DNA of 64,000 bases from Tropicimonas sp. IMCC34043 (GTDB lineage Bacteria; Pseudomonadota; Alphaproteobacteria; Rhodobacterales; Rhodobacteraceae): contig NZ_QMEK01000002.1 of the NCBI RefSeq assembly GCF_003390845.1, positions 62,001 through 126,000 on the forward strand. Direction: 5' to 3'. Shown one piece after another: positions 31,622-59,583 of the stretch. Within the stretch, counting starts at the first letter, position 1; each line of letters starts with the position of its first letter. Position numbers and translations under genes: made by a program. The notes beneath the pieces were generated by a model, which saw nothing but the letters and a program-made list of their open reading frames with translations, ran no database searches and was not told the DNA's origin.

Positions 31622-31641
31622 GACACTTGTATACAAATGTC
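31622..31641. promoter_or_regulatory. Operator-like palindrome in the GST/oxidoreductase divergent promoter
   Basis: A 20-bp near-perfect palindrome (one mismatched pair) centred on the perfect core TTGTATACAA (31627-31636). TTGTATACAA-like sites are typical of GntR/FadR-subfamily repressors, two of which are encoded in the island. A second inverted repeat, ACACAC (31600-31605) and GTGTGT (31615-31620), lies just upstream. Binding by either island GntR is inferred. Confidence 0.55.
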
Positions 31642-31756
31642 TCCATCGGAATGCAATCAGCCAAAGTTCGGCGTCCCGTGCAGCTGGCCAGCGGCCTCTG
31701 CGCACCGTTCGAGCTTTGCGGCTATTTGCTCCGCAGGGGTTGAGACGGGGCCGGAA

Positions 31757-34105: not shown

Positions 34106-34180
34106 ACTACCGGCCAGGGGCCGTTGGGGCCGGACGCACCGAACTGGCAGAGACCTCCATTTCCACGAGAAAGACATGAC

Positions 34181-38229: not shown

Positions 38230-38246
38230 CCCTCTTCGGGTCCTCC

Positions 38247-38276
38247 GCGCGGCCGGGTCCTCCCCCCCGGCCGCGC
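38247..38276 (+). terminator. Intercistronic hairpin after the substrate-binding protein gene
   Basis: Perfect 11-bp arms GCGCGGCCGGG (38247-38257) and CCCGGCCGCGC (38266-38276) with an 8-base loop, lying between the receptor gene and the first permease, with no T-run. Such hairpins often protect receptor mRNA so the binding protein is made in excess over the permeases; that role is inferred. Confidence 0.6.
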
Positions 38277-38297
38277 TCCCCAGCACCGGAGCCACCA

Positions 38298-40198: not shown

Positions 40199-42057
40199 TG
40201 GCCTTCTCAGCACAACTGCGCCCCGAGGAGACGCAGCCGATCCTTTCCGTCAGCGGTCTGACGACTTCTTTCAAAGTCGCACGTGGCTGGAAGCCGGTGG
40301 TACGCAACGTCAGCTTCGACATCGGGCCCCGCGAAACCCTGGCGGTCGTCGGCGAAAGCGGCTCCGGCAAGAGTGTCACGGCGATGTCGATAATGGGGCT
40401 TCTCAACCCGCGGACCTCTCTGATCGAAGGCGAGATCCGGTTCGACGGCACCTCTCTGACCAGGCTTTCGGATGCCAAGATCCGCAGGGTCCGGGGCTCC
40501 GACATGTCGATGATCTTTCAGGACGCGAGTCTCAACCCGGTCTATACGGTAGGATTTCAGCTGACCGAGGTCCTGCGCCTGAAACGCGGCATGTCCCGTT
40601 CGCAAGCGACAGAAGAGGCGGTGACGCTTCTTGAAAAGGTCCGCATCCCCGCGGCCCGCAAGCGTCTTGGCGACTATCCGCATCAACTGTCGGGCGGAAT
40701 GCGGCAGCGGGTGGCGATCGCCATGGCGCTGGCCTGCAAGCCGCGCCTGCTTATCGCCGACGAACCGACGACGGCGCTCGACGTCACGATCCAGGCGCAG
40801 ATCATCGAACTGATCAAACTTCTTCAGGACGAAGAGCACATGTCAGTGATGTTCATCACCCACGACATGGGCGTCGTCGCCGAAGTGGCCGACCGAACCG
40901 CGGTGATGTTCCGGGGCGACCTGGTCGAGACCGGCACCACGCAGGAAATATTCGCCCGGCCCCGCGAGGCCTACACCAAAGCGCTTCTCGCCTCGATCCC
41001 GCGGCTGGGCTCCATGAACGGAACCGACTTTCCGCAGCCCTTCGAGCTGATCGACCATCGGACGGGCGAACCTGTCGCGGCCGCGGCCACCCCCCTGCCC
41101 GCAGCCCCCGCCGGCAGCCTGTCGTTGCTCGACGTCGACCAGTTGTCGCTTCGCTTCGACGTGCGCGGCGGCTATCTCAACCGGCTGATTGGGCGGGTCC
41201 ATGCGGTGGAGGACGTATCCTTCAGCATCGCCCCGGGAGAAACCCTGTCTCTGGTCGGCGAAAGCGGCTCCGGCAAGAGCACCACGGCGCGGGCGATCAT
41301 GGGCCTGAGCTCGATGGTGCGCGGCGACATCCGGCTTGGCGGGCTGGTGGCAGCAGGGCCCAAGGCGGCACCGCGCAGCGTCTTGTGCAGGAAGCAGCAA
41401 ATGATCTTCCAGGATCCCTTCGCCAGTCTCGACCCCCGCTTTCGGGTCGGCGATCTGCTGGCCGAGCCGCTGCGATTGCACCTGAAGCTGCAAGAGACCG
41501 AGATCGAACAGAAGGTTGTCGCCCTGCTCCGCGATGTCGGCCTCAGACCCGACATGGCCCAGCGGTTCCCACACCAGTTCTCGGGCGGTCAGCGCCAGCG
41601 GATCGCCATCGCGCGCGCTCTTGCCCTCGACCCCCAGCTCGTGGTCGCCGACGAGGCCGTGTCGGCGCTCGACGTGTCGGTCAAGGCGCAGGTCATCAAT
41701 CTGATGATGGAGATCCAACGAGAACGGCAGCTATCCTATCTCTTCATCAGTCACGACATGGCCGTGGTCGAACGGATCAGCCATCGCGTGGCCGTGATGT
41801 ATCTGGGGCGGATCGTCGAGATCGGCCCGCGTCGCTCGGTCTTCGAGAACCCGTCTCATCCCTACACGCGCCAACTCATGGCCGCGGCCCCGGTGCCCGA
41901 CCCCTCGCGCCGGCAATTGCGGCGCGGGCTGGTGGCCGACGAGATCCGCTCTCCGATCCGGCCCAAAGGCTTCGCTCCGGCGCTTACACGGATGATCGAG
42001 GTCGCGCCGGACCACTTCGTCCTCGATCTGCCAGATCACGCGCCCGAGTTTCCATAG
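40198..42057 (+). CDS. Fused dual ATP-binding protein (DppD-DppF type)
   Basis: A 619-residue protein joining the two ATPases of a peptide-type importer. Each half has Walker A ([26 protein letters not shown]), a signature ([30 protein letters not shown]) and Walker B ([24 protein letters not shown]). The second Walker B reads DEA instead of DEP, a frequent variant. Fused DppDF ATPases are common in alphaproteobacteria. Confidence 0.93.
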
Positions 42058-42127
42058 ACGGAGGGTGCCGAATCCTGACCCGCGAAACCTACCTCAATCA
42101 GAGAAACACGAGAAACAAGACAGATCG

Positions 42128-43345
42128 ATGCCGACATCCCCCCATACCGAACTAACTGACGCACGGATCGCAGCCGACAAGAAGGCGACGTCGGATCCGC
42201 ATGTCCAGACCACTCTGTGCCATGCCGGGCGAAACCCGGAAAAGCACAGCGGCGCCGTCAACGTACCGGTCTTCCATGCCTCGACGATCCTCTTCCCGAC
42301 CCTGGAAAAGCTGGACGGGAAAGCGAGTGCACCGGTTCGCTACGGCCGGCGCGGCACGCCGACCAGCCAGGCGCTGGAGGATACCGTCTCGGCGCTGGAA
42401 CGGGCAGAAGGCACCGTTTTGACCCCCTCGGGAGCAATGGCAATCACGGTTACGCTCCTGGCCCATGCCCGCCCTGGAGCGCACTTTCTGATCCCGGACA
42501 ACGCCTATGGCCCCTGCCGGCACACCTGCAACGAGGTGCTGAAACCGATGGGCGTCACCTTTACCTTCTACGACCCCCTGATCGGAGCCGGAATTGCGGA
42601 CCTGCTGCGGGATGAAACCGCGCTTATCTGGATCGAGGCGCCCGGTTCGCAAACATTCGAGATGCCTGACATCCGCGCGATCGTCGACGTCGCCCGCGCA
42701 AACGGAATCCGGACCGCACTGGATAACACCTGGTCGGGCGGCTACTACCTCCAACCGATCTCGATGGGCGTCGACTATTCGATCCAAGCCGGCACCAAAT
42801 ATCTGTGCGGCCATTCCGACGTCATGTCCGGCACCATCGCATGTGGACCCGGGCTGCACGAGGGTATGAAGAATTACGCCGCCCGGCTCGGCGTCTGCGT
42901 CGGCCCCGACGATGCCTATATGGTCCTTCGTGGCATGCGGACGCTTGCCGTGCGCATGCGCCAGCACCAGGATGCGGCGCTCCAGATCGCAACCTGGCTG
43001 GCCGACAGGCCCGAAGTTCTGCGCGTCATGCACCCGGGGCTGGCCACCGATCCCGGCCACACCCTGTGGCGGCGGGATTTCAGCGGTTCTTCGGGGCTGT
43101 TCGGCTTCGTCATCCGGCCCGTGGACCGGGCCAGGCTGGCGCGGATGATGGACGGGCTGCGCTTTTTCGGAATGGGCGCGAGCTGGGGCGGCTTCGAAAG
43201 CCTGCTTATCCCGACCGACCCCGCCAAGCTTCGCAGCGCGACCGAGTGGAACCCCGGCGGACAGACGATGCGGGTTCAGGTGGGTCTGGAAGAGCCCGCG
43301 GACCTGATCGCCGATCTAGAAGAGGGGCTGGCTCGGCTGGCATGA
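42128..43345 (+). CDS. PLP-dependent Cys/Met metabolism lyase (cystathionine beta-lyase-like)
   Basis: A 405-residue type I PLP enzyme of the Cys/Met metabolism family. The cofactor lysine is Lys224 in QAGTKYLCGHSD. Supporting segments are TLCHAGRNPEKHSGAVNVPV, YGRRGTPTSQALED and LDNTWSGGYYLQP. Family members cleave C-S bonds (beta-lyase) or carry out gamma-eliminations. It lies 70 bp after the transporter ATPase gene, suggesting that the imported compound, or a product of it, is a sulfur amino acid or similar substrate. The ATG at 42128 begins the homologous region. Confidence 0.87.
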   Translation: MPTSPHTELTDARIAADKKATSDPHVQTTLCHAGRNPEKHSGAVNVPVFHASTILFPTLEKLDGKASAPVRYGRRGTPTSQALEDTVSALERAEGTVLTPSGAMAITVTLLAHARPGAHFLIPDNAYGPCRHTCNEVLKPMGVTFTFYDPLIGAGIADLLRDETALIWIEAPGSQTFEMPDIRAIVDVARANGIRTALDNTWSGGYYLQPISMGVDYSIQAGTKYLCGHSDVMSGTIACGPGLHEGMKNYAARLGVCVGPDDAYMVLRGMRTLAVRMRQHQDAALQIATWLADRPEVLRVMHPGLATDPGHTLWRRDFSGSSGLFGFVIRPVDRARLARMMDGLRFFGMGASWGGFESLLIPTDPAKLRSATEWNPGGQTMRVQVGLEEPADLIADLEEGLARLA

Positions 43346-44118
43346 AACACGACGATTTCATACGAGACGGGGTCATCGGACCGGCCGGAAACAAGGCTTT
43401 GGACTCCGGGATCTCACGCAATCTGCCGGAGGGGGTGCCGAGCAACCACGCGCGCCGGGTCCGGCCGGGTGGCGTGGTGCCGACACATGACAGCCTGGTG
43501 CGGATGGGCATGAATACCGTTTCGGTGGCCTGTAGCCTGGAGCGGTTCTGCCCCCCGGCCATGCTTTGCGGCTGCACCGGCAGCAGGTTCGTCCAAGTGC
43601 CGGCAGAGGTCGACAGCGTCTCGGGCCCGATTGAGGTGGAAGTGGGCGTTGCGGCCGATCACCACCTCGCGCAGCGTCCTCGACGCGCTGAAGGCGCGCC
43701 CGGTCTGCCTCGCCGCTCGCTTGGGCCGCGAAATCCACCTGTCGATGACAACCGTCCTCGGCAGCTTCAACGTGAAGGTTCGAGCCCAAGCTTCACGCGA
43801 CGGCACGGCCCTCGCCCCGATCGGTGCCGTGGACTCGCGGCGAACCATCGATTTGGTACTCGACCACCAGGCGCCGGTGAAGGGCTGCGGCGCGGTTTCG
43901 ATCGGCGGCACAACCCGCTGACCTTCATCATCATCGCCGAGCTGGAAACCCTCCTCGGCGGGCCGGTGAAATCTTCCAATCTCGCGCTGCTCTGGGCGGC
44001 GCTCCCGGACCTCGTGCGCCTGCCCGCATCCTGCGGTGGCCAGAGATCTTTTTCGTTGCTGTCGCTCGAACCCGTCCAACTCGCCGGGGCCAGCACCAAG
44101 CAACCCGCGAAATCATGA
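43342..44118 (+). pseudogene. Decayed Asp/Glu racemase-family gene (maleate isomerase/arylmalonate decarboxylase-like)
   Basis: The start ATG overlaps the stop of the PLP gene, as an intact operon gene would. Family-like protein segments then appear in different frames: frame 1 gives IGPAGNKALDSGISRNLPEG, TVSVACSLERF and LCGCTGSRFVQ (first catalytic Cys); frame 2 gives ITTSRSVLDALKARPVCLAA (from about 43655); frame 1 again gives TFIIIAELETLLGGPVKSSN and LALLWAALP (from about 43920). At least two frameshifts are needed. The second catalytic Cys region reads SIGGTTR without cysteine. Total length fits a 240-residue gene. A sequencing error could explain a frameshift but not the lost Cys. Confidence 0.75.
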
Positions 44119-47914: not shown

Positions 47915-49303
47915 ATGTCGGACAGCCCGGTTCCCCTCACTCTCGATCTGGCCCGCGCGCTTGCCGGGCTGGACCCCGTCGCACTGTCCGATCGCGTCGC
48001 CCGGCGCTCCGGGATCGCCTTTCTCGATACAATCGCTGTCATTGCGGCCGGGCTACGCGAACCGGCCGTCGAGGCCTTGGCCAGAACCATCGGCGACGGG
48101 GGCGGACCGCCCGCCACCGCCCGGGACCGCGCGCTGCTGCTCGGGACGGCGGCGCATGCGCTCGACTATGACGACGTGGCCTTCGGGGGGCATGTCAGCG
48201 CGGTCATCGTCCCCGCGATCCTCTCAATGCTCCCCGATCTGCCGCGGCAGACGCCGTCGCGCCTGCTGTTGCTGGCCTATGCCGCGGGCTTTGAGGCCTG
48301 GGCCGAGGTCTCGGCACGCGAGACGACGCTCTACCATTCCAAGGGCGGGCATCCCACCGGCATGCTCGGTCCTCTGGGAGCCGCGGCCGCGGCCGCAACA
48401 CTGCTTCGTCTCGATACCGACCGGTACGCGCATGCGCTTGCCATCGCCGCGTCGCTCGGGGCCGGTCTGACGGTCAATTTCGGCACCATGACCAAACCGT
48501 TTCATGCAGGCCGCGCCGCAGAGGCCGGCGTCTTCGCCGCATTGCTGGCACAGGCCGGCATGACTGCTGCGCCCGACGCGCTGGAAGCGCGGAACGGGTT
48601 TTTGCGGGTCCACTCCCCGAATGGCGACGTCGATCTGCGAAGGCCGGTCTTTCTGGACGGCGGCGCGCTTCGGCTCGAAAGCGTCGCGCCCAGCGTCAAG
48701 CGCTTTCCGGTGTGCTACGCCGCCCATCGGGCCATCGACGCGGCATTGGCGTTGCACCGCGATGGCGGCTTTACGCCCGAGGCGCTGACGCGGATCGATA
48801 TCCTGATCAGCCCGCGCCACGCTGGCACGTTGCGATATTCCGACCCGACGACGGTGTCGCAGGCCCGGTTCAGCCTGGAATTCGCCGTCTGCACCGCCTT
48901 GCTGACAGGACAGGTTGGGCTCTCCCAGCTCACGGACGCCTGGCTGAACGACAGGCAATTGCGGCGGCTCATGAGCCGTTGCCGCCGAGAGCTTTCGGAC
49001 CGGGCCGATCCCGTGCTCGAAGGCTTTGCGGCCTTCGATCGGGTCACACTTCACCGCAACGATGCACCGCCCCTGCGAAGTCCCGAGGTCACCCGTCCCC
49101 TCGGCCATGCCGATACCCCGCTGAACCCCGATCAGATCGAAGCCAAGCTGGCAGATTGCATTTCCCTGTCCGCATCGCTTCCGTCCGCCGCCGAGATGCG
49201 CGACCTGATCGGGCAACTGGGACAGCCGACCGGCGTCCCCGACGCGCTGACATCCCTTCTCGGCGCGCTTCTCGCGCAGGCGGCCCCGGCCTCACATCGC
49301 TGA
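47915..49303 (+). CDS. MmgE/PrpD-family protein 1
   Basis: A 462-residue member of the family that contains 2-methylcitrate dehydratase, cis-aconitate decarboxylase and iminodisuccinate epimerase. Conserved active-site regions are HALDYDDVAFGGH, KGGHPTGMLGPLGAA, GTMTKPFHAGRAAEAG and KRFPVCYAAHRAID. The substrate is unknown. It is the first of five paralogues within 7 kb. The ATG at 47915 is eight bases after the hyuB stop. Confidence 0.88.
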   Translation: MSDSPVPLTLDLARALAGLDPVALSDRVARRSGIAFLDTIAVIAAGLREPAVEALARTIGDGGGPPATARDRALLLGTAAHALDYDDVAFGGHVSAVIVPAILSMLPDLPRQTPSRLLLLAYAAGFEAWAEVSARETTLYHSKGGHPTGMLGPLGAAAAAATLLRLDTDRYAHALAIAASLGAGLTVNFGTMTKPFHAGRAAEAGVFAALLAQAGMTAAPDALEARNGFLRVHSPNGDVDLRRPVFLDGGALRLESVAPSVKRFPVCYAAHRAIDAALALHRDGGFTPEALTRIDILISPRHAGTLRYSDPTTVSQARFSLEFAVCTALLTGQVGLSQLTDAWLNDRQLRRLMSRCRRELSDRADPVLEGFAAFDRVTLHRNDAPPLRSPEVTRPLGHADTPLNPDQIEAKLADCISLSASLPSAAEMRDLIGQLGQPTGVPDALTSLLGALLAQAAPASHR

Positions 49304-49359
49304 CAGCGGTCCTGCTGCGCGCGGTCATCCCTTTTCAACCAAAGGAAAGAATACACATC

Positions 49360-50703
49360 ATGTCACGCACAAGGCGACTGGTCGAATTCGTACTCGACAC
49401 GACCTACGACCAGTTGGATCCCGCGGTCATCACACTCGCCAAGAAACACTTTCTGGACTGCGTCGGCTCGGCCCTCGCCGAGGCGGCACACCCGCGGTCG
49501 CAGATCGTCCAGAATTACCTGAACCGGGTCGGCGCCGAAGGACCATGCCGCGTCATCGGCTACGGTCGCAGCGCCACCATCGACAACGCGGCCTTTGCCA
49601 ACGGCATCCTCGCCCATACGATCAGCTTCGACGACAGTGGCCCCTCGCATCCGTCGGTAACGATCGTTCCGCCTCTGCTGGCCATGGGCGAGATGTATCA
49701 CCTTGACGGCAAGGCGATCATCGCCGCGCAAGTCCTGGCCTACGACGTTTTTCAACGGCTGAACGCCGTGACCGAGGACGCCTGGGAAATGCGCAAGCGC
49801 GGCTGGCATCCCACCGGCTTCTTCGGCGCCGTCACCTCGGCCGTGCTGTCGGCGAAGCTGATGGGCCTGACCCTGGACGAAAGCGTCAACGCCGTCGCCA
49901 TCGCCGCGACCATGGGTGGCGGGCTCAGCCAGAATATCGGCAGCATGGGGATGGGGCTGCACGCCGGCAACGCAAGCCGCAACGGCATCATCGCCGCGCA
50001 TCTGTCCAAGGAGGGCTTTCGCGCCGACGCCGATCCGCTGGAGGGCCGCTTCGGCCTGATGGACGCGCTGTGCGGCCCCGGGACCTACGAAACCCGCGCG
50101 CTGACGGACGGGCTGGGCGCGCCCTTCCGTCTGCTGGAACCGGGGATCACGATCAAGCCCTATCCGAATTGCTGGGCGCATCACAAAGTGCTGGATTCCG
50201 TGCTGCATCTGGTCGGCGCCCACAACATCCGCCCCGATCTGGTCGAGCGGGTGGACGTCGATCTGCAACCCGACAAGCCGACCTATCGCTACCTCGAACC
50301 CAAGACCGACCTCGAAGCGCGCTATAGCCTGGGCTACGGCATCTCGCTGTGCCTTCTGGACGGCGGGCTTGGCCTGGACCAGTTCGCGGACACGCGGATC
50401 GAGGACGCCCGGACCCGGGACATGCTGGCCAGGATCCACCACGTCCCGCAAGAACCCGGCCCGGCCCAGAACAAGGTCGCCATCCTTCTGAAGGACGGCC
50501 GGCGCCTGTCGCACCGTGTCGATCATTCCAAGGGCCACCCGCGTTTCAACCCGATGTCGGACGAGGACGTGCAGGCGAAATTCGCGGACTGCGCCGGCCG
50601 GACCCTGTCCGGCGATCAGGTCGAAAGGGCCGCCGGACTGATGAACGCGCTTGAGGAGGTCGACGATCTTGCGTTGCTGATGGACGCGCTGGTGGCGGGC
50701 TAA
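49360..50703 (+). CDS. MmgE/PrpD-family protein 2 (divergent active-site motif)
   Basis: A 447-residue paralogue, the last gene of the long plus-strand operon. HTISFDDSGPSHPSVTIVPP and KRGWHPTGFFGAVTSA match the family. The segment that reads TKPLH or similar in the other four copies reads GMGLHAGNASRNG here, so the conserved Lys is missing; PYPNCWAHHKVLD is also atypical. It may catalyse a different reaction. AAAGGAAAG lies ten bases before the ATG. A strong terminator follows. Confidence 0.88.
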   Translation: MSRTRRLVEFVLDTTYDQLDPAVITLAKKHFLDCVGSALAEAAHPRSQIVQNYLNRVGAEGPCRVIGYGRSATIDNAAFANGILAHTISFDDSGPSHPSVTIVPPLLAMGEMYHLDGKAIIAAQVLAYDVFQRLNAVTEDAWEMRKRGWHPTGFFGAVTSAVLSAKLMGLTLDESVNAVAIAATMGGGLSQNIGSMGMGLHAGNASRNGIIAAHLSKEGFRADADPLEGRFGLMDALCGPGTYETRALTDGLGAPFRLLEPGITIKPYPNCWAHHKVLDSVLHLVGAHNIRPDLVERVDVDLQPDKPTYRYLEPKTDLEARYSLGYGISLCLLDGGLGLDQFADTRIEDARTRDMLARIHHVPQEPGPAQNKVAILLKDGRRLSHRVDHSKGHPRFNPMSDEDVQAKFADCAGRTLSGDQVERAAGLMNALEEVDDLALLMDALVAG

Positions 50704-50730
50704 GACAGGTACAAACAGTTCCAACGCAAA

Positions 50731-50759
50731 GGACCCGCCGTCGTGGCGGGTCCTTTTTT
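50731..50759 (+). terminator. Rho-independent terminator of the plus-strand catabolic operon
   Basis: Perfect 9-bp stem GGACCCGCC (50731-50739) and GGCGGGTCC (50745-50753), loop GTCGT, followed by six T residues (50754-50759). It lies 27 bp after the last MmgE/PrpD stop and in the gap between convergent operons. Confidence 0.92.
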
Positions 50760-50779
50760 CGTTGCTGCGGCGAAACGGA

Positions 50780-52129
50780 TCAGGCGAACAGGCGCATCAT
50801 GCCCGCCACATCGTCGTGGACATCCATGGACAATACGGCATCGAAGGCCTCCTGCGCCGCTGCCGGGTCCATGTGGCCCGAAACGCAGTCCGAAAACTTC
50901 TCGAACAATTCGGCATCCGTCATCGGGTTCAGCGGGCCGCGTCCGAAATTGGTCGATGCAACTTCTTCGAATACCCGCCCGTCCTTCATCGTCACCCTGA
51001 CCCGCCCAAGGTACTGATCGTCTCCGGTGTGGTGGGTGGAGGTCGTCACCTTCAGCAGCTCGGCAACCGCCGGCGTCATGAAGGCGCCCTCCCTGAAGTC
51101 TGCGATGCGCAACTGCCCGTCCGTCAGCGCCTTTGCCGTGAGGAACTGGACCGAGAACTTCGCATCCAGCGCGGTTGCGGGCTCGGGCCGATTGGTATGC
51201 GCGAGCCGGCGTTCATGCGTCCAGGTCTCGATGGCTGCGATCCCGTCCGGCCCCAAAGCTCCCTGCGCGGCACGGATCTTCAGAGCACTGTCGATTGCCG
51301 AGTGCGCGCTGCCGCAGCAGGGATGCTGCTTGATCGCGATACCGGGTTTCAGGATCTCGGGCGTCCCGTGCCAATCGTCCAGGATCTTCTCGATGGAAAA
51401 TGTGCCTTCGCCGTTCAGTACATTGAAGAACCCGTAGGCATGCTCAAATGCCTCGAGGTTCGCCGTCACGCCTGCCGAGGTCAGAAGGGCGGCGAGCATG
51501 CCGTTATGCGCGGCCTGCCCGACATGCAGGGGCTTAACCGGCGTGCCGAAGTTCGATTTCAGCCCCGAGGTCATGGAGACGGTCATCGCCAGCGCATTGG
51601 CCAACGCCGGCGCCTCGAGCCCCAGCAGCCGGGCCGATGCGACGGTCGCACCGAATACCCCGAGCGTTGCGGTCGGATGCCAGCCCTTCTCGTAGTGATG
51701 CGGCAAGAGCCCCCGGGCGAGCCGGGTCTCGGTTTCGAACCCCGCCAGATAGGCTTCGATCACGGCCTTCCCGCCAAACCCGTGGTCCTCGGCGATGGCA
51801 AGCAAAGCCGGGACCATCGGCGCCGAAGGGTGCCCGCCCAGCGTGGTCGAACAATCGTCGAAATCGAGCGCATGCGCCGCGGTGCCATTCACCAGCGCCG
51901 CATGAAGCATGGTCGAACGGCCGTTGCGTGCCACCCGAGTCGCCTTGCCCGGCGCCGCGGCGGTGCCAAGCACCGTCTCGAGGCTGGCAATGAAATCGGC
52001 CCCCGCTCCGGCCACCGTCACCCCGAGGGTATCGGCCACCGCCCGCTTCGCGATATGGATCGCCTCGTCGCCGCTGTCGTCCAGAGAGATTGCAGCCGCG
52101 CGTTGCGCAAGCTCGTTCGCAAATGTCAT
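50780..52129 (-). CDS. MmgE/PrpD-family protein 3
   Basis: A 449-residue paralogue with HALDFDDCSTTLGGHPSAP, EKGWHPTATLGVFGA, GTPVKPLHVGQAAHNG and KQHPCCGSAHSAID. The ATG at 52129 was chosen because AGGAG lies seven bases upstream; an upstream start at 52147 would overlap the preceding gene. It is the last gene of a minus-strand operon of three MmgE/PrpD genes and a dienelactone hydrolase-like gene. Confidence 0.88.
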   Translation of the reverse strand: MTFANELAQRAAAISLDDSGDEAIHIAKRAVADTLGVTVAGAGADFIASLETVLGTAAAPGKATRVARNGRSTMLHAALVNGTAAHALDFDDCSTTLGGHPSAPMVPALLAIAEDHGFGGKAVIEAYLAGFETETRLARGLLPHHYEKGWHPTATLGVFGATVASARLLGLEAPALANALAMTVSMTSGLKSNFGTPVKPLHVGQAAHNGMLAALLTSAGVTANLEAFEHAYGFFNVLNGEGTFSIEKILDDWHGTPEILKPGIAIKQHPCCGSAHSAIDSALKIRAAQGALGPDGIAAIETWTHERRLAHTNRPEPATALDAKFSVQFLTAKALTDGQLRIADFREGAFMTPAVAELLKVTTSTHHTGDDQYLGRVRVTMKDGRVFEEVASTNFGRGPLNPMTDAELFEKFSDCVSGHMDPAAAQEAFDAVLSMDVHDDVAGMMRLFA

Positions 52130-52143
52130 TTGAATGCTCCTGA

Positions 52144-53499
52144 TCAAAGCGTCGCGGCTTCGATCTCATCGGTCAGGTTTGAAACGGAGGGCAGCGCGTC
52201 CAGGTCGAGCAGCATGTCCAATGTCGCCTGCGCGCCCGCCGCGCTGATGCTGCGAGAGGCGCAGTCCAGGAACTTGCTTTGCAGCATCTCGGCCGGAAGC
52301 GGCACCTCGGGTCCGCGTCCCAGCGGCGCGGACACCTCGGCCTTCAGCCGTTCCGCCGAGCGCAGGACCACCGTGACCTCTGCGCCATAATCGTTGGAAT
52401 CGTCCTCGTGCGGAACCATCTCGATCAGCGACATGACACGCATGACATCGGGGTCGTGCAGGGCCTCTTCCTCGAAGTGATCCAAGGTCACGGAGCCCGT
52501 AATCAGCGCCCGCGCCACGGCGTATGGCAGCGAGAACTTCGCGTTCAGCGCGCTGCTGGCAGGGTTCTGCACATGCTTCAGCATGCGACGGCGATGCATG
52601 TGCACCACGACCTTTTCGATCTGTGCCGCCTCGGGGGCGTTTGTCCGGTTGATTTCGATCGCCGCGTCGATCGCGCCGTGAACGCTGTAGACACAGGGAT
52701 ATTTCTTGATCGACAGGCCCGGGCTCATCAGGTCCAGCGGGTCGCCCCATCCGGTCAGCATCTTGTCGATGTCGTAGTTGCCCTTGCCGTTGAAGACTTC
52801 GAGGAACCCTTGCGGATGTTCAAAGGCCGTCGGCCCGGCAGAGACACCCTGTTCGGCGAGCAGGGCAGCAAAAAGCCCGTTCCGCGCTGCGATGCCCGCA
52901 TGCAGGGGCTTGGTCGGAGTTCCGAAATTGGCTTTCACGCCCGAGGCGAAGGACGCGGCCATCGCGATGGCATGCGCCATCTGCTCGGCGCTGTGGCCCA
53001 TGAGCCGGCTCGCCGCTGCGGCGGCGCCGAAGATGCCCAGCGTGGCGGTCGGGTGCCAGCCCTTCTCGTAATGGTAGAAGTTGACGCCGCGCGCGAACCG
53101 CGTCGCCAGTTCGACCCCCACGATATATCCGTCGAGCAGCGCCTGACCGGAGGCGCCGCGCGCCTCGGCCAGGGCGAGAAGACCGGGAATGATGATGACC
53201 GTGGGATGGCCCGACAGCGACTTGCTGGTGTCGTCGTAGTCGAGCGCGTGGCCGGAGGTGCCGTTGACAAAGGCGGCCTCGAGCGGCGCCAGACGTTCCT
53301 TGCGCCCAAGAACCAGGGCAGGCCCGGGAACGTCCATTCCGGCGGCCAGAACCGCAGCCGTGGTGTCTGTTCTTGCGCCGAGCAGCGCGCAGCCCACGGT
53401 ATCGGCGATAGCCTCGCGCGCCCATTTCCTGGCGTCCGACGGGAAATCGCGATAGTCGAGGTCAGTGGCGCGTTGCGCCAGTTGGAGGGCGAGTGTCAT
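52144..53499 (-). CDS. MmgE/PrpD-family protein 4
   Basis: A 451-residue paralogue with HALDYDDTSKSLSGHPTVI, EKGWHPTATLGIFGA, GTPTKPLHAGIAARNG and KKYPCVYSVHGAID. By eye it is closest to protein 3. The start at 53499 has AGGAG five bases upstream; longer readings run into the neighbouring gene. Spacing to both neighbours is 14 bp. Confidence 0.88.
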   Translation of the reverse strand: MTLALQLAQRATDLDYRDFPSDARKWAREAIADTVGCALLGARTDTTAAVLAAGMDVPGPALVLGRKERLAPLEAAFVNGTSGHALDYDDTSKSLSGHPTVIIIPGLLALAEARGASGQALLDGYIVGVELATRFARGVNFYHYEKGWHPTATLGIFGAAAAASRLMGHSAEQMAHAIAMAASFASGVKANFGTPTKPLHAGIAARNGLFAALLAEQGVSAGPTAFEHPQGFLEVFNGKGNYDIDKMLTGWGDPLDLMSPGLSIKKYPCVYSVHGAIDAAIEINRTNAPEAAQIEKVVVHMHRRRMLKHVQNPASSALNAKFSLPYAVARALITGSVTLDHFEEEALHDPDVMRVMSLIEMVPHEDDSNDYGAEVTVVLRSAERLKAEVSAPLGRGPEVPLPAEMLQSKFLDCASRSISAAGAQATLDMLLDLDALPSVSNLTDEIEAATL

Positions 53500-53513
53500 C
53501 TGTTCTCCTGCTG

Positions 53514-54872
53514 TCAATGTCCACCACGGGCGGCCAGAAGGCAGGTCATCCCAGTGACGGCGGATTGGGTCTCTAGGGCCATGAGGCCGTCGTAGAGCAT
53601 TGCGGCATCGGCGGGCGTCATCAGGGCCGTGCAGCAATCGTCGAACTTGCGGCGGAATTCGTCCTCGCTCAGCGGATTGTCGCGCCCGCGGCCCATGGCA
53701 ATGCTGGCGGAGGCCTCGTGACGTGCCCCGCCGGGCAGGGTCACGGCGATCCGGCCCAAATTCAGATCGCCGCAGTCGTGCGTCGCCAGGTCGATCCGGC
53801 GCATCACCTCCTGCGTCTGACCGTCGCCCAGGGCATCGGGCTGAAAATCGTTCAGCCCGACGGTGCCATGCAGCAGCGCGCGCGCGACGAGGTACTGGGT
53901 GCTGAACCGCGCGTCGAGCTCGTCGCAGGGAGTGGGCCGGTCGATGTTGCGCAGACGGCGGGGATGCAGCCGCACCGTGATCGTTTCGGGAATTGCGCCT
54001 GACGGCATCTCGCCACGCAATGCGGTGGCCGCGTCGATGGCGCTATGGATGAAGGCGCAGCACGGGTATTGTTTGATCGCAATCCCCGGCGATAGGAACG
54101 CCTCTCCGGGCGCCGGCGGTTCCAAGGCCGCGCGGTCGATCTCACCCGCCGTTCTGCCGTTGAACGCTTGCAGATATCCCAGCTTGTGTTCGAACGCCGT
54201 AGTGTTGGCGGTCATCCCGGCCTCGGCAAGAAGGACAGCCTGAAGGCCGTTCCGATTCGCCATGCCGGCATGAAGCGGCTTGGTCATCGTACCGGAATTC
54301 GCCCGCACCCCGGCAGCGGCAGAGGCCGCGACGGCCAGCGCCCGGGCGGTGGTTTCCGGGTCGAGACGCAAAAGCCGGCAGCCGGCCGCGGCGCAACCGA
54401 CGACACCGAAGGTTACGGTGGGGTGCCATCCCCGATTCACGTGTTCCGGATTGGACATCCGAGCAAGCCAGATTTCGGTGGTTACGCCGGCCATATAGGC
54501 CGCGAGCAGATCGGCGCCGGTCGCGCCGCGCGCCTCCGCCAGCGCAAAAAGAGCCGGAACCACCGAGACGGAGGGATGCCCGTCCATCAGCAGGTTGCAA
54601 TCGTCGAAATCGAGCGCATGCGCCGCGACCCCATTGACCTGCGCGGCATCGAGCGCCGAGCGCCCCGTCGCTGTGCCCACGACGGTCGAGGGTCCGCCGG
54701 CCAGCGGCAGCGTGCCGAGCAGCAGGCGAACCACCGGTTCGGCATGGCCCGCGGCCATGCAGGCGATCACGTCGGCCACTGACCGGCGCGCCCATTTCAC
54801 CGCTTCGGCGGGCTGGTCATCAAGCGAGAACCCGCTGGCAACACGGGCCATCTCCATCGTGACAGGGATCAC
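53514..54872 (-). CDS. MmgE/PrpD-family protein 5
   Basis: A 452-residue paralogue with HALDFDDCNLLMDGHPSVS, NRGWHPTVTFGVVGC, GTMTKPLHAGMANRNG and KQYPCCAFIHSAID. The start codon is GTG at 54872, with AAGGA about seven bases upstream. It follows the dienelactone hydrolase-like gene by 60 bp and is the first of three same-strand MmgE/PrpD genes. Confidence 0.88.
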   Translation of the reverse strand: MIPVTMEMARVASGFSLDDQPAEAVKWARRSVADVIACMAAGHAEPVVRLLLGTLPLAGGPSTVVGTATGRSALDAAQVNGVAAHALDFDDCNLLMDGHPSVSVVPALFALAEARGATGADLLAAYMAGVTTEIWLARMSNPEHVNRGWHPTVTFGVVGCAAAGCRLLRLDPETTARALAVAASAAAGVRANSGTMTKPLHAGMANRNGLQAVLLAEAGMTANTTAFEHKLGYLQAFNGRTAGEIDRAALEPPAPGEAFLSPGIAIKQYPCCAFIHSAIDAATALRGEMPSGAIPETITVRLHPRRLRNIDRPTPCDELDARFSTQYLVARALLHGTVGLNDFQPDALGDGQTQEVMRRIDLATHDCGDLNLGRIAVTLPGGARHEASASIAMGRGRDNPLSEDEFRRKFDDCCTALMTPADAAMLYDGLMALETQSAVTGMTCLLAARGGH

Positions 54873-54932: not shown

Positions 54933-55631
54933 TCATCTCAGGCAGCGTGCGAACAAATCGAGCGTGCGTTGTTCCGCCAGCGCCGCATGCTCCTCTCGGT
55001 GCGGCGGATAGCCGAACCGTCCGAAGCCGTGCGGCGCATCGGCGTAGACATGGACGGTCACGTCGCTTCGGTCAGCGGTCAGCCTGTCGATCTCATGGCC
55101 GGCGGAGACCGGGATACCCTGATCCGCCTCACCGAAGTGCAGGATCGTCGGACATTTCAGCTCGGTCGCTTTTTCCGTCATCTCTTGCAGTCGCGTCCCG
55201 TAATACACCGAGCAGGCGTCGGGATCGGCCGTGGCCGAGTAGAGATAGGCAAGCTGCCCCCCCAAGCAGAACCCCATGATTCCGACCTTGCCGTTGCTGC
55301 CTGACAGCCCGCGCAGGTGGGCGGCGCAGACATCGAGGTCGTGCAAGGCCTGAGCGGTGTCCAGGTTGAGGGCGAGCTTGCGGCCCTTCTGCTGGTTTTC
55401 CGGCGTATAGGCCATGCGCAGCCCCGGTTCCTGGCGCCAGAACAGGTCGGGAGCCAACACATTGTAGCCGGCAGCGGCATATCGTTCCGCCACGTCCTGC
55501 ACCCAGTGGTTCACATTGTAGATTTCCGCCAGAAGCAGGACCCCGCCGCCGCAGCCGCCCGCGGGCTGCGCCAGGTAGGCCTCGAACTCCCCATCATCGC
55601 ATTGAACGGAAATGAATTCCCCAACAGCCAT
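54933..55631 (-). CDS. Dienelactone hydrolase-family alpha/beta hydrolase
   Basis: A 232-residue cytosolic hydrolase. The catalytic triad of dienelactone hydrolase is conserved, each residue one position below classical DLH numbering: Cys122 in GFCLGG, Asp170 in GEADQGIP and His201 in APHGFG; Glu36 is kept in LLLAEIYN. This agreement supports the ATG at 55631 over the upstream one at 55664. It would cleave a lactone or ester intermediate. It starts the minus-strand operon with three MmgE/PrpD genes, divergent from the TRAP transporter genes. Confidence 0.9.
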   Translation of the reverse strand: MAVGEFISVQCDDGEFEAYLAQPAGGCGGGVLLLAEIYNVNHWVQDVAERYAAAGYNVLAPDLFWRQEPGLRMAYTPENQQKGRKLALNLDTAQALHDLDVCAAHLRGLSGSNGKVGIMGFCLGGQLAYLYSATADPDACSVYYGTRLQEMTEKATELKCPTILHFGEADQGIPVSAGHEIDRLTADRSDVTVHVYADAPHGFGRFGYPPHREEHAALAEQRTLDLFARCLR

Positions 55632-55653
55632 CCCGAAACGCCCCCCTATATCT

Positions 55654-55690
55654 GTGTACACCATTCGCTCGATGTATATTAATGTATACA
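55654..55690. promoter_or_regulatory. Operator-like palindromes in the divergent DLH/TRAP promoter
   Basis: Two perfect short palindromes, GTGTACAC (55654-55661) and TGTATACA (55683-55690), lie between the divergent hydrolase and TRAP genes. The second has the GTATAC core also seen at 31627-31636. They are candidate sites for one of the island GntR regulators. Confidence 0.5.
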
Positions 55691-55798
55691 GCAGTGTGCA
55701 AGCTTGTTATTTTGCCCGAGATCGAGCGCGCCGGCACACGAAAAGACCCCGCAAGGGCCTTTCGCCGGGCGTTTGAGCCAAAGGGATGGAGAGAGAGT

Positions 55799-56338
55799 TT
55801 GCGCAGATTTCTGAAGCGAATAGACAGGTTGCTCTACAACGCCGAGAGTGTGCTGATCGGTGTTTTTTCGGTCGCGGCCCTGATGGTGGGGACCGGGCAG
55901 GTCGTCCTGCGCTACGTCTTCAACACCGGCTTCGAATGGTCCGAAGCGGTGTTCATGCTGCTGACCATTTGCGGCGTGCTGGCGGGGGCGATCCGGGCTG
56001 TCCGCAACGATCTTCACGTGCGCATGGACCTTGTCGCCCAGTCGGTCGGCCCCGGTCTGCGCCGCCTGCTGAACGGGATCGGCTGCGTCATCTCGCTGGC
56101 GCTCTGTGCCTTTTACGCCTTCTCCGGAGTGATCTTCGTCGGCTTCCTGAAACAGATGGGCACGGTGAATGTCGAAACCGGCATTCCTGACTGGGCCATC
56201 TTTTCGATCATGCCGGTCGTCATGGCCTGCTTCGTGATCCGCTACGTCATCCGGATCGCGTCGATCATCGAGGGTGACGAGACCGGCGCCCCGCCCTTCT
56301 CCGACGCAAAGCATCCTTTGGCCAGGGGCGTGAAATGA
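55799..56338 (+). CDS. dctQ: TRAP transporter small permease (DctQ)
   Basis: A 179-residue membrane protein with four hydrophobic segments, the size and pattern of TRAP small permeases (QVVLRYVFNTGFEWSEAVF). The start is read as TTG at 55799 with GGAGAG (55788-55793) five bases before it. An ATG at 55682 would add 39 non-homologous residues and lies inside the operator region. Its stop overlaps dctM by four bases. Confidence 0.85.
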   Translation: MRRFLKRIDRLLYNAESVLIGVFSVAALMVGTGQVVLRYVFNTGFEWSEAVFMLLTICGVLAGAIRAVRNDLHVRMDLVAQSVGPGLRRLLNGIGCVISLALCAFYAFSGVIFVGFLKQMGTVNVETGIPDWAIFSIMPVVMACFVIRYVIRIASIIEGDETGAPPFSDAKHPLARGVK

Positions 56339-57660
56339 CCGCGATTGTCCTGGTTTTCATATTCTTCTGTCTCATCCTCATCGGTGTCCCGATCGCCGTA
56401 GCCCTTGGCGGGTCGGCTTTGGCGACCTCGCTGCTGCTGAGCCCGCTGCCCCCGGCAATCATCGGGCAGAAGATCTTCGGCAATCTGGAACACCTCACGC
56501 TGATGGCGGTGCCATTCTTCTTCTTCGCCTCGGCCCTGATGGAGTCGGGCGGGCTGGTCAAACGGCTCATCGCCCTGTCGAATTCGCTGGTCGGTCATTG
56601 GCGCGGCGGTCTCGGCATCACGACGGTTCTGACCTGCGTGTTCTTCGCCGCGCTCTCGGGGTCCAGCCCCGCCACCGTCGCCGCAGTCGGCCGCATCATG
56701 TATCCCGCGCTTCTAAACGCCGGCTACTCGACCCGCTACGCGCTCGGGGCACTGACGACGGCGGGCTCGATCGGCATCCTTATCCCGCCCAGCATTCCGA
56801 TGCTGATCTACGCCTTCGTCACCGAAACCTCGGTCACACGGCTGTTCCTGGCCGGCGTCGTGCCCGGCATCATCTATGCCGCGGGCATGGTGGTCGCGGC
56901 ACGTTTCCTGGCCCTGAAAGAAGACATCGCCCCGCAGGAGCGGATGAGCTGGCCCGGCCGCGGGCAGGCGTTACTCAACGCCGGTCCGGCACTCATGCTG
57001 CCGTTGATGATCATCGTCGGCATCTATGGCTTCCCGGATTTCTCCATAGGCGGGCTGGAGGTGTCGGGCGGCGCCCTGTTCACACCGACCGAAGCCGCCG
57101 TTCTCGCCACGTTTCTCGCCTTCCTGATCGGCTGGCTGGTCTATCGCGAGCTGACCGTCCGCACTGCCATACAGAGGGTGATCGATACGGCGCCGAGCGT
57201 GGGGATGATTTTCTTCATCACCACGAACGCGCTTTTCTTCGCCTTCTTCATCACCCAACTGGGCATCCCGCAATGGGTGACCGAGACGCTGGTCGCGCTG
57301 GATATGCCGCTCTGGATGTTCCTGCTGATGATAAACATCCTGCTGGTGATCGTCGGCTTCTTCCTCGAAGGCGTGCCGACGATCCTGATGTTCGTGCCGG
57401 TCCTTTTCCCCGCCGCACGGGAAATGGGTATCGACCCCGTGCACTTCGCGATCATCGTCATCGTGAACATTGAGCTGGGCCTGGTGACCCCCCCGGTCGG
57501 GCTGAACCTCTTCGTCGGATCCGCCATCTCCAACCAGCCCGCCACCGTCGTGCTGAGAGGCACCCTTCCCTGGATGGTCGTTACCGTAGCTGTCCTGATC
57601 CTCGTCACATACGTGCCTGGAATTTCGCTGTGGCTGCCGAACTACGTGTTCGGCGACTGA
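56335..57660 (+). CDS. dctM: TRAP transporter large permease (DctM)
   Basis: A 441-residue permease with about twelve membrane segments, carrying the transport function of a TRAP system (sodium- or proton-driven uptake of organic acids). Family segments are GSSPATVAAVGRIMYPALL, GSIGILIPPSIPMLIYAF and LVTPPVGLNLFVGSAI. It overlaps dctQ in an ATGA and is followed by the receptor gene after 46 bp. Confidence 0.93.
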   Translation: MTAIVLVFIFFCLILIGVPIAVALGGSALATSLLLSPLPPAIIGQKIFGNLEHLTLMAVPFFFFASALMESGGLVKRLIALSNSLVGHWRGGLGITTVLTCVFFAALSGSSPATVAAVGRIMYPALLNAGYSTRYALGALTTAGSIGILIPPSIPMLIYAFVTETSVTRLFLAGVVPGIIYAAGMVVAARFLALKEDIAPQERMSWPGRGQALLNAGPALMLPLMIIVGIYGFPDFSIGGLEVSGGALFTPTEAAVLATFLAFLIGWLVYRELTVRTAIQRVIDTAPSVGMIFFITTNALFFAFFITQLGIPQWVTETLVALDMPLWMFLLMINILLVIVGFFLEGVPTILMFVPVLFPAAREMGIDPVHFAIIVIVNIELGLVTPPVGLNLFVGSAISNQPATVVLRGTLPWMVVTVAVLILVTYVPGISLWLPNYVFGD

Positions 57661-57706
57661 GCCTTCGCGACCCAATGACCAAACCTGAAAACAAACGGAG
57701 GAGACC

Positions 57707-58714
57707 ATGCGTAGACAATTCATCAAACTTGCGATGGCGTTTGCCGCAGCCCTGGCAGCATCGGCGGCACCAGCGTTGGCGCAAACGAAAATCGTGCTGA
57801 ACAACGACGGCAGTTCGCTCAGCATCAAGGGCCAGGCGATGCAGATCTGGAAAGACGAGATCGAGGCGCGGCTGGGCGACGATGTCACGGTGGAACTGCA
57901 CCATGCCGGATCGCTCTTCGACCAGAAGTCTCAAATTCAGGGTGTGCAGCTTGGCATGGTCCAGATCATCGCCCCAGCCATCGGGATCTACACGTCGAAT
58001 GCACCGAACATTTCCGTTCTCAGCCTGCCCTATCTGCTGGAAACGCCGACGCAGGTTCAGGCCGCCATCGAGGATCCGATCGTCGCGGCCGCATTCGAGG
58101 GCGATCTGGAATCCCGCAACATCAAGCTTCTGGACGTCTGGCCCAATGGCCCGAAGGATTTCTTCTACAAAGGTGACCGTCCGATTCTGGTTCCCGAGGA
58201 CATGCGAGGCTTCAAGTTCCGCGTCCAGGCGGTGCCAGCCGATCTGGAGACTATGAGGGTTCTTGGCGCCAATGGCATCTCGATGACCTGGACAAAAGTC
58301 CCGACCGCCCTTCAGCAAGGCGTGATCGATGCGATCGAACCCTCGGCCAACGCGGTCGTAAGCGCCGGGATGGTCGAAACCATCGACCAGATGACGCGGG
58401 TGGGCTACCAGTACAGCTTCTTCGTCGTCGGCGTGAACAAGGGTTGGTGGGACACCATGCCCGAGGATCAGCGCGCAGCAATCTCCGAGGCGCTCGACGT
58501 AGCGACCGACTGGATCACGCAAAACGCGAAGGAAGCCAACGCCGAGGCCTATGCCCTCATGGCCGAAAAGGGTGTTGTGATCCACGACATCACGCCCGAG
58601 CAGCGCCAGCTCTGGATCGACGCGGTGGCCCCCGTCTGGGAAAGCTACGGCGTGAACCTGGCAGGCGAAAAGGTGATGAACCGCCTCAAGGAAATCGCTG
58701 CGACGGTCGAATAA
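57707..58714 (+). CDS. dctP: TRAP transporter substrate-binding protein (DctP)
   Basis: A 335-residue periplasmic receptor with a Sec signal (MRRQFIKLAMAFAAALAAS, cleavage after PALA). It shows the DctP segments GVQLGMVQIIAP, FKFRVQAVPADLETMRVLGA and TKVPTALQQGVIDAIEPSAN; the Arg in the first of these regions normally pairs with a carboxylate ligand. A hairpin follows the gene. The ligand is probably a mono-, di- or tricarboxylate. Confidence 0.92.
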   Translation: MRRQFIKLAMAFAAALAASAAPALAQTKIVLNNDGSSLSIKGQAMQIWKDEIEARLGDDVTVELHHAGSLFDQKSQIQGVQLGMVQIIAPAIGIYTSNAPNISVLSLPYLLETPTQVQAAIEDPIVAAAFEGDLESRNIKLLDVWPNGPKDFFYKGDRPILVPEDMRGFKFRVQAVPADLETMRVLGANGISMTWTKVPTALQQGVIDAIEPSANAVVSAGMVETIDQMTRVGYQYSFFVVGVNKGWWDTMPEDQRAAISEALDVATDWITQNAKEANAEAYALMAEKGVVIHDITPEQRQLWIDAVAPVWESYGVNLAGEKVMNRLKEIAATVE

Positions 58715-58944: not shown

Positions 58945-59583
58945 ATGCACCCAGCCGATATCAAGAACACCACGCCCTTTGATCGCCTGGTCGCGGCCAT
59001 TGAAGTAGGCGAGCTGCCACCGGGCTCCCGTCTGCTTGAAACAGAGCTCGCCAAACGTCTTGGTATCAGCCGCACCCCCGTGCGCGAGGCGCTGCACCGG
59101 CTTCAGGCGCTCGGCCTCGCACAACAGGGCGCGCAGCGCGGCCTTGTCGTGGCGGAGCTTAACTATCAGAAACTCAGACAGCTTTTCGCGGTGCGCGAGG
59201 GCATCGAGGGTCTTTGCGCCCGCCTTGCGGCGCAGAACGCGACGGCGGAAGAGCATGAAATGCTCCAGGATCTGATCGATATGGACCGGAACGAGACCGA
59301 CCCCGAGATCCTGAGTGCGCGCAATGCGGTGCTGCACCGCCACATTTCCTATGCGACCCATAACACATACATGATGGAAACGGTGGACAGCCTGAGACTA
59401 CATCTCGTCCTGCTTCCGGGTTCGACCTATACTTTTCCAAAACGACTTAAAGAAGCCCAAGAAGAACACGAGAAGATTGTCCAGGCCATCGTCGACGGCG
59501 ACGCGGATGCCGCCGAGAAGGCCGCGCGAGAACACATCGCGCATGGGTTCCGGGTCCGGATCATGATGATGTCCACGAGCTGA
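58945..59583 (+). CDS. GntR-family (FCD-type) transcriptional regulator
   Basis: A 212-residue regulator with the winged-helix motif SRLLETELAKRLGISRTPVR (about residues 29-48) and an FCD ligand domain (NAVLHRHISYATHN with metal-type His residues, and a late EHIAHGF). It follows the TRAP genes and probably controls them or the hydrolase operon. It resembles the first GntR only at family level. Confidence 0.88.
   Translation: MHPADIKNTTPFDRLVAAIEVGELPPGSRLLETELAKRLGISRTPVREALHRLQALGLAQQGAQRGLVVAELNYQKLRQLFAVREGIEGLCARLAAQNATAEEHEMLQDLIDMDRNETDPEILSARNAVLHRHISYATHNTYMMETVDSLRLHLVLLPGSTYTFPKRLKEAQEEHEKIVQAIVDGDADAAEKAAREHIAHGFRVRIMMMSTS

Follow-up and report, generated by a model that had tools for sequence, protein, structure and literature searches.

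Five divergent MmgE/PrpD proteins in a candidate gene cluster for S-conjugate catabolism of Tropicimonas sp. IMCC34043

Succinated cysteine and glutathione are damage products and disease biomarkers, and for S-(2-succino)cysteine (2SC) the available part of PMC9706529 describes a Bacillus subtilis locus with an acetyltransferase, a flavin mononucleotide (FMN) monooxygenase, a deacetylase, an ATP-binding cassette (ABC) transporter and YxeQ, the function of the latter being unassigned there, and reports that some bacteria have the lyase 2SL in place of the monooxygenase. YxeQ is listed as a Swiss-Prot match of an MmgE/PrpD protein in a table of PMC8752978. According to the accessible portions of PMC12290011, the MmgE/PrpD family is found in 19.2% of the prokaryote species surveyed, and four characterised activities are named; the substrates of characterised members all share a 1,4-dicarboxylate backbone, an enolate formed by C2 deprotonation is proposed for the family, and the two-base mechanism of iminodisuccinate (IDS) epimerase and methylsuccinate isomerase is said to involve an additional Tyr. 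The present analysis deals with a 64,000-nucleotide stretch of Tropicimonas sp. IMCC34043 (contig NZ_QMEK01000002.1, positions 62,001 to 126,000; here the window), which carries five adjoining MmgE/PrpD genes, designated A to E. The interpretation that we favour, with a confidence falling just short of even, is that the region from 30.8 to 59.6 kb is one catabolic supercluster for S-(dicarboxyalkyl)cysteine and S-(dicarboxyalkyl)glutathione conjugates, with 2SC-type compounds as the first candidates.

A (47915-49303, 462 residues) and B (49360-50703, 447 residues) lie on the plus strand, and C (50780-52129, 449 residues), D (52144-53499, 451 residues) and E (53514-54872, 452 residues from a GTG start) on the minus strand, as stated in the initial annotation. 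Its description of five full-length family members of 447-462 residues is borne out by open frames without internal stops and by matches to both family Pfam domains, all above the curated cut-offs (E-values from 4.9e-42 to 8.5e-65 for the N-terminal domain and from 4.9e-25 to 7.7e-33 for the C-terminal one). The minus operon, said to be filled by three MmgE/PrpD genes, does contain the three, but it also holds a dienelactone-hydrolase-family gene as its first member before E (54933..55664, minus strand; Pfam DLH, E 1e-37), separated from E by 60 bp. The other gaps are operon-like (HyuB-A, 8 bp; A-B, 56 bp; C-D and D-E, 14 bp each). ARAGORN also called a tRNA-Leu (cag) at 50452-50520 on the minus strand, opposite to and inside the B frame, which is probably a false call.

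No PF03972 match at E ≤ 0.001 other than these five genes was found in the 4.6 Mb genome. Among eight genomes of the same genus that were searched, six lack MmgE/PrpD genes and two have one each; a D relative at E ≤ 1e-140 was found in one of 385 genomes of the class, that of the window itself, with at most four candidates per genome scored among the matches listed. These results indicate that the five-gene cluster is accessory and rare. Each window protein falls in an orthologue group of its own (A with four other members, B with one, C with 16, D with 17 and E with 14) in a midpoint-rooted FastTree phylogeny of 188 members, comprising the five window proteins, 178 from the fetched loci and five references other than methylsuccinate isomerase, four of which were stretches from Protein Data Bank (PDB) alignments. 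The C group is sister to that of E (support 0.973), A and B belong to one clade of 12 (support 0.946), and all five are included in a clade of 128 (support 0.953) that leaves outside IDS epimerase, the B. subtilis protein of structure 7bra, cis-aconitate decarboxylase (CAD) and PrpD. Thus, the five are not copies of a single known enzyme, their groups being separate from those of PrpD, CAD and IDS epimerase (2hp3), and recent tandem duplication of one enzyme is ruled out by these separate groups and by pairwise identities of 27-41% (C, D and E are mutually about 40% identical, and A and B are 27-33% identical to the others).

Individual identities were also considered. Assignment as 2-methylcitrate dehydratase (PrpD) was rejected, all five proteins being far under the cut-offs of the NCBIfam PrpD models matched (TIGR02330, NF006943 and NF042438; the best score was 66.5 bits, for D, against 575), and orthology with IDS epimerase was rejected by the position of 2hp3 outside the clade holding A-E. 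CAD was discarded on the basis of an alignment with a chain that we take to be the human one, as its numbering fits: the position of H277 is Cys or Val, and that of Y318 is His, Asn, Thr, Ile, Pro or Lys in groups A-E, with gaps in the alignment near Y318. Both residues are described in the part of PMC7347537 available as important for CAD activity.

The alignment instead separates the five by their putative catalytic residues. Groups A, C, D and E retain His99 of IDS epimerase, a second His and both Lys residues. All 17 C and all 18 D sequences have Tyr145, which is replaced by Ala, Val or Gly in E (15/15), by His in A (5/5) and by Arg in B (2/2), where one conserved Lys is also Met and one Asp is Ser. 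The two-base set of the IDS epimerase type (His99, Tyr145, the conserved His and two Lys) is therefore complete in C and D and incomplete in E, with its one-base set, and in A and B. The Tyr count of D, and partly that of C, is biased for the loci obtained by genome scanning because one of the two scan patterns included this Tyr; the plasmid loci were found by whole-protein searches without the Tyr pattern, and E is free of this bias. The different conserved residue sets make it likely that A-E carry out at least two different reactions and are not redundant, in agreement with the earlier proposal of several distinct lyase or epimerase steps, since each set is conserved within its own orthologue group.

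From the comparison of gene order, E, D and C are assigned to a rare cassette associated with a C-S beta-lyase, a glutathione S-transferase (GST) and GntR regulators. In the window, the lyase gene (42128..43345, plus strand) encodes a pyridoxal phosphate (PLP)-dependent enzyme of the cystathionine beta-lyase clade; its frame opens at 42065, and the next ATG was chosen as start from the orthologue alignment. With 425.9 bits against a cut-off of 365.9, it is the sole TIGR01324 member above cut-off in its genome, and its PDB profile matches are MetC and 'cysteine-S-conjugate beta-lyase'. The GST gene (30855..31457, minus strand; Pfam GST_N/GST_C; start set from the orthologue alignment) is 46-53% identical to the cassette GSTs of loci L006-L009, where the orthologue lies directly 3' of C. 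The regulators are GntR/FCD proteins, GntR1 (35661..36314, plus strand; 42-79% identical to GntR genes in D-orthologue loci) and GntR2 (58945..59583, plus strand; 54-59% identical to the lyase-adjacent GntR of other loci).

Protein matches to D were found in 658 plasmid records, the best nine being 64-67% identical and belonging to Shinella, Paracoccus, Ponticoccus and Sagittula. The four plasmid loci opened first share one order, namely C-S lyase, amino-acid ABC transporter, E, D, C and GST, with identities to the window of 55-58% for E, 64-67% for D, 62-64% for C, 58-59% for the lyase and 46-53% for GST. Upstream of the Ponticoccus cassette (L008:9343-9876), a fragment 68% identical over 74 residues to a C-like MmgE/PrpD suggests a lost copy. 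A scan of species genomes with the D alignment gave at least 592 stretches, 570 of which were confirmed, and 79 loci were kept: 13 D loci (L010-L022; D at least 58% identical; L012 and L007 are one and the same Shinella plasmid) and, as controls, the other 66 D-like loci (at most 51%). Counting homologues at 35% identity or more, among the loci listed, the C-S lyase and GST are each present at 11 of the 13 D loci and at none of the controls, GntR1 or GntR2 at 12 of 13 and one of 66, PrpF at five of 13 and none, HyuA at two of 13 and none, and the peptide ABC transporter at one of 13 and three of 66; control locus L073 has a 27% GST, under the counting threshold. When only loci of at least 15 kb are taken, the lyase and GST are each found at 10 of 11 D loci and at none of 44 controls. 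Fisher p-values from such counts overstate independence because the loci are kin by descent or transfer. No dienelactone-hydrolase homologue was seen at the D-orthologue loci. The initial annotation had proposed a search for conserved clusters of three or more family members, and E-D-C are indeed such a trio, recurring with lyase and GST in other genomes.

The two D loci without lyase and GST are L010 and L021. L010 belongs to Frigidibacter oleivorans (D, 92% identical), where lyases and GST are found on another contig of the same genome (L094), in which the plus operon of the window is reproduced through A and B at 71-93% identity, followed by GST, an amino-acid ABC transporter and a second lyase.

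These counts bear on the possibility that the cluster serves a C-N pathway for amino-linked dicarboxylates (iminodisuccinate, ethylenediaminedisuccinate-like chelators or opine-like products), with C and D as enzymes of the IDS epimerase type and the others as C-N lyases. Among PDB entries, C and D both match IDS epimerase best, they conserve its His/Tyr pair, and amino-acid ABC transporter genes, counted by their binding protein, occur at nine of the 13 D loci and none of the 66 controls; however, the C-S lyase and GST of the D loci would be left without a role, as would the sulfide-type genes of Paracoccus yeei described below, and we regard such a pathway as rather improbable.

A, in turn, is assigned by its neighbours to a second module, formed by the C-S lyase, an Amdase-family gene, HyuAB and A. 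In the window, the second of these is a degenerate remnant of the Amdase/Asp-Glu-racemase family (43342..44013, plus strand; tblastn, 32-36% to intact genes), with two recognisable ends and a barely alignable middle; intact counterparts occupy the same place in P. yeei, where the gene matches Pfam Amdase, and in Salipiger, and another is found in Klebsiella. HyuA (44131-46257, plus strand; Pfam E 2e-75) and HyuB (46254-47906, plus strand; E 8e-145) are of the hydantoinase/oxoprolinase type, and the caprolactamase CapAB models match them below cut-off (460.4 and 222.5 bits, against 1000 each). An A orthologue follows HyuB also in L006, L094, L115, L015 and L018, and among the fetched loci B has an orthologue in F. 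oleivorans only. B is divergent, and no step in the putative pathway is assigned to it.

In P. yeei, the second block lies about 9 kb from the cassette, on the same plasmid, and comprises ABC permeases and ATPase, metC, an Asp/Glu-racemase-family gene, HyuA, HyuB and A, in the order of the window plus operon except for the binding-protein gene, which is downstream. Among the genes between the two blocks are TauE/SafE (above the Pfam cut-off), a fusion of a TIGR01244 sulfur-transferase with an SQR-like part, and one whose product matches Blh in its dioxygenase half (384.5 bits against a cut-off of 625). TauE/SafE also lies next to the cassette in three Shinella records and is present in the Klebsiella cluster, and both Blh halves are matched side by side, below the model cut-off, on contig C13 of the window's genome. 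It is very improbable that unrelated operons have merely come together by chance. The modules are separable, as E-D-C and the HyuAB-A-B operon are on different contigs in F. oleivorans; against chance, the parts recur jointly on plasmids of Rhizobiaceae, Paracoccaceae and Roseobacteraceae, P. yeei holds relatives of both GntR1 and GntR2, and one or the other regulator accompanies nearly every D locus, as counted above.

More distant arrangements were also found. In Salipiger abyssi (L115), lyase, racemase-family gene, HyuA, HyuB and A are present at 58-86% identity, and in Aquamicrobium (L015/L100) one stretch carries a racemase-family gene, S/N-oxide reductase, ABC importer and PrpF, and the adjoining one HyuAB-A, lyase, D, C and GST. 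Klebsiella plasmid L121 has DppB, DppC, a fused ATPase, an A-like MmgE/PrpD (39%) and SBP5, together with a racemase-family gene, HyuA (59%), HyuB (69%), S/N-oxide reductase (48%) and GntR (50%), and further two more MmgE/PrpD genes, TauE and an amino-acid ABC importer. This is a Klebsiella pneumoniae IncFIB/IncHI1B plasmid typed as conjugative. Other MmgE/PrpD regions, from four relatives (G021, G050, G010 and G012; loci L089-L093, L160 and L161), were set aside: those of G021 and G050 have 25-33% MmgE/PrpD matches and generic TRAP genes, that of G012 a 27% MmgE/PrpD with a generic ATPase and an acyl-CoA dehydrogenase match, and that of G010 a 40% lyase and, about 1.4 kb away, a 31% MmgE/PrpD, together with tricarboxylate-transporter genes but without matches to further cassette genes.

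The second module raises the alternative of a cyclic sulfur or amide compound (oxothiazolidine, thiomorpholinone or hydantoin-like), for which HyuAB and the racemase-family protein would be the core and the MmgE/PrpDs would act on the opened acid. It would be consistent with the recurrence of lyase, Amdase-family gene, HyuA, HyuB and A in P. yeei and Salipiger, with the joint presence of the Amdase-family gene and HyuAB in Klebsiella, and with the resemblance of HyuA to caprolactamase. HyuA, however, is too infrequent in the D-locus stretches to be the core of the E-D-C module, and the racemase-family gene is degenerate in the window itself, making this alternative quite improbable.

The window was profiled from 28 kb rightward. 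A molybdopterin S/N-oxide reductase of the BisC/TorA group (31637..34105, plus strand) matches nearly the whole of TIGR00509 with 761.8 bits, a resemblance only since the cut-off is 1017.55, and has homologues in or beside related clusters (L100, L121 and L117). The adjacent PrpF-family gene (34124..35278, plus strand; Pfam PrpF, E 1.4e-98) scores 456.6 bits with NF033377 against a cut-off of 440; the PrpF-like isomerase of the initial annotation is thus present, although 12.6 kb upstream of A, and is better named as being of the 4-oxalomesaconate tautomerase type. Of the carboxylate transporters noted at the same time, the right side does carry one, the tripartite ATP-independent periplasmic (TRAP) transporter DctQ-DctM-DctP (55682..58714, plus strand; DctQ and DctP by Pfam, DctM at 56335-57660 named from order and sequence), but the transporter of the plus operon is an oligopeptide-type ABC importer with SBP5, DppB, DppC and fused ATPases (36616..42057, plus strand; SBP5 and ATPase by Pfam, DppB and DppC from gene order and homology). 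Homologues of the latter precede the lyase in L094 and L112. In a Xanthobacteraceae locus (L059), a TRAP transporter 43-64% identical to that of the window lies near a D-like (42%) MmgE/PrpD.

The PrpF-type tautomerase and the TRAP transporter would also suit sulfur-free branched di- or tricarboxylates (itaconate, methylsuccinate, aconitate or tricarballylate), on which the MmgE/PrpDs would act as isomerases or dehydratases with the lyase as a co-transferred neighbour, and characterised family members act on such acids according to the available text of PMC12290011. We nevertheless consider these substrates unlikely, given that no CoA transferase or acyl-CoA dehydrogenase is among the genes profiled at 30.8-59.6 kb, that E-D-C are accompanied in different families by C-S lyase, GST and GntR, and that the PrpD models and the CAD residues are not matched.

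Further information comes from the structures 7bra and 7e9d ('Bacillus subtilis IRG1'), which from protein length we take to be probably YxeQ and not CAD. ScmK, the FMN monooxygenase of the 2SC route, belongs to the NtaA/DmoA family, and the deacetylase YxeP to the M20 family. Relatives of 7bra are found in 535 plasmid records, of which 25 were listed and five opened; in all five, an NtaA/DmoA-family monooxygenase above cut-off lies within two genes of the 7bra relative with an amino-acid ABC transporter near, the Staphylococcus locus also having a GNAT acetyltransferase and that of Pantoea a BisC-type enzyme. The whole genome of the window has no NtaA/DmoA match (TIGR03860, E ≤ 0.001), so that the known monooxygenase route of 2SC appears to be absent. 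The passages available of PMC12290011 also consider that the protein of 7bra probably has a different, unassigned function.

The expectation of several lyase and epimerase steps thus holds, but the substrate, initially placed in C-C or C-N chemistry, is shifted towards a thioether because of the PLP C-S beta-lyase, GST, S/N-oxide reductase and conserved cassette. Enolate chemistry on 1,4-dicarboxylates, as proposed in the part of PMC12290011 seen, would fit a succinyl thioether, the sulfur analogue of iminodisuccinate, and the presence of YxeQ in the 2SC locus, the monooxygenase neighbours of the 7bra relatives, and the TauE/SafE, SQR-like and Blh-like genes near cassettes are counted in the same sense. 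With the S-conjugate supercluster as working model, the substrate, the order of steps and the roles of GST, HyuAB, S/N-oxide reductase and PrpF can be inferred as follows. Uptake of the conjugates, or of their acid part, would be the task of the peptide-type ABC and TRAP transporters, GST and HyuAB would unpack glutathione or lactam forms, and the BisC-type enzyme would reduce S-oxides. C and D, with His and Tyr, would invert the carboxyl-bearing carbon on sulfur, making usable both diastereomers that would arise from the uncatalysed addition of acid to thiol. At that carbon, E and A, which keep His and Lys and have lost Tyr, might eliminate or decarboxylate by a one-base mechanism, with the freed mercapto-acid or adducts of other acids as possible substrates. 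Cleavage of the cysteine C-S bond by the PLP lyase would yield pyruvate, ammonia and the mercapto-acid, the PrpF-type tautomerase may shift double bonds in unsaturated acids, and sulfide could pass to a persulfide-dioxygenase-like pair elsewhere in the genome.

Several points weigh against this assignment. The sequence data link none of the steps to a particular compound, and the substrate class is a prediction. Its weakest point is the partial redundancy expected if a C-S lyase and an MmgE/PrpD lyase acted on one substrate: direct release of cysteine by an MmgE/PrpD would make the PLP lyase superfluous, and the proposed order of steps is accordingly tentative. Five enzymes also exceed the needs of one substrate, although several substrates (fumarate, itaconate and aconitate adducts, stereoisomers, and oxidised or lactam forms) would resolve the redundancy. 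L021, with E, D and C, has no lyase or GST in about 33 kb (its upstream side ends at the contig edge, and the downstream side was read 20 kb further), and neither was matched in the 33 kb opened of L121. Among the loci examined, the SQR-like and Blh-like genes are beside the cassette in P. yeei only. A substrate switch of the PLP lyase at E. coli Q115/D116 seemed promising from the cassette lyases and was then rejected, since Arg at 115 and residues other than Asp at 116 are common in control alphaproteobacterial lyases and the change has no discriminating power. Lyases of the same clade are found beside amino-acid transporter genes without MmgE/PrpD in stretches of about 4 kb of S. meliloti and Terrarubrum. 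These two loci (L126, on S. meliloti pSymB, and L127, on a Terrarubrum plasmid) perhaps represent a wider family of modules for uptake and cleavage of cysteine conjugates. Finally, neither an acetyltransferase nor 2SL is among the genes profiled, no genome-wide search for them having been made, and the gap at the acetyltransferase, which opens the known 2SC pathways, counts on the same side.

Despite these points, the conserved E-D-C trio, with its different residue sets and its ties to C-S lyase and GST, provides a concrete and testable substrate class. The cluster suggests an unfamiliar route for using cysteine or glutathione modified by metabolic acids such as fumarate. A literature search for MmgE/PrpD with C-S lyase, GST and hydantoinase, a limited check reaching few subscription journals, gave no relevant pathway, in line with the earlier statement that none of this composition is characterised; the enzymes are of known kinds, and the pathway is apparently an undescribed form of S-conjugate catabolism. 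A more specific proposal, possible but doubtful, is that succinated thiols are catabolised by a third route, independent of acetylation and of oxygen, with the MmgE/PrpDs handling the stereochemistry of the succinyl carbon and the PLP lyase cutting on the other side. If true, it would add a disposal route for succinated cysteine and glutathione, by extension propose for YxeQ the function of a 2SC (or N-acetyl-2SC) epimerase, and give a function to a large and mostly uncharacterised portion of the MmgE/PrpD family.

Compared with known systems, the window shares with the scm (yxe) 2SC locus of B. subtilis an MmgE/PrpD gene (YxeQ in scm) and the proposed substrate class (PMC9706529 and PMC12757645, in the parts available), as well as the amino-acid ABC transporter of many related loci and the M20-family hydrolase of P. 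yeei; unlike the scm locus, it lacks the NtaA/DmoA monooxygenase and has a PLP C-S lyase, GST, HyuAB and five MmgE/PrpDs. (S)-(R)-methylsuccinate isomerase is similar in family and in its proposed two-base enolate epimerisation, but its itaconate cluster has, as far as PMC12290011 is available, a CoA transferase and an acyl-CoA dehydrogenase, which are not among the window genes profiled. IDS epimerase of Agrobacterium (PDB 2hp0/2hp3) has the fold family and the His99/Tyr145/His/Lys/Lys set in common with C and D, and differs in lying outside the clade of A-E and in that the window setting is one of genes for thioether enzymes. As 2SC is the sulfur counterpart of iminodisuccinate, the residue set of C and D would fit 2SC as well. 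MetC (PDB 1cl1 and 2fq6) resembles the window lyase, which is above the TIGR01324 cut-off, but the lyase gene, unlike that of MetC, is part of a catabolic-type operon.

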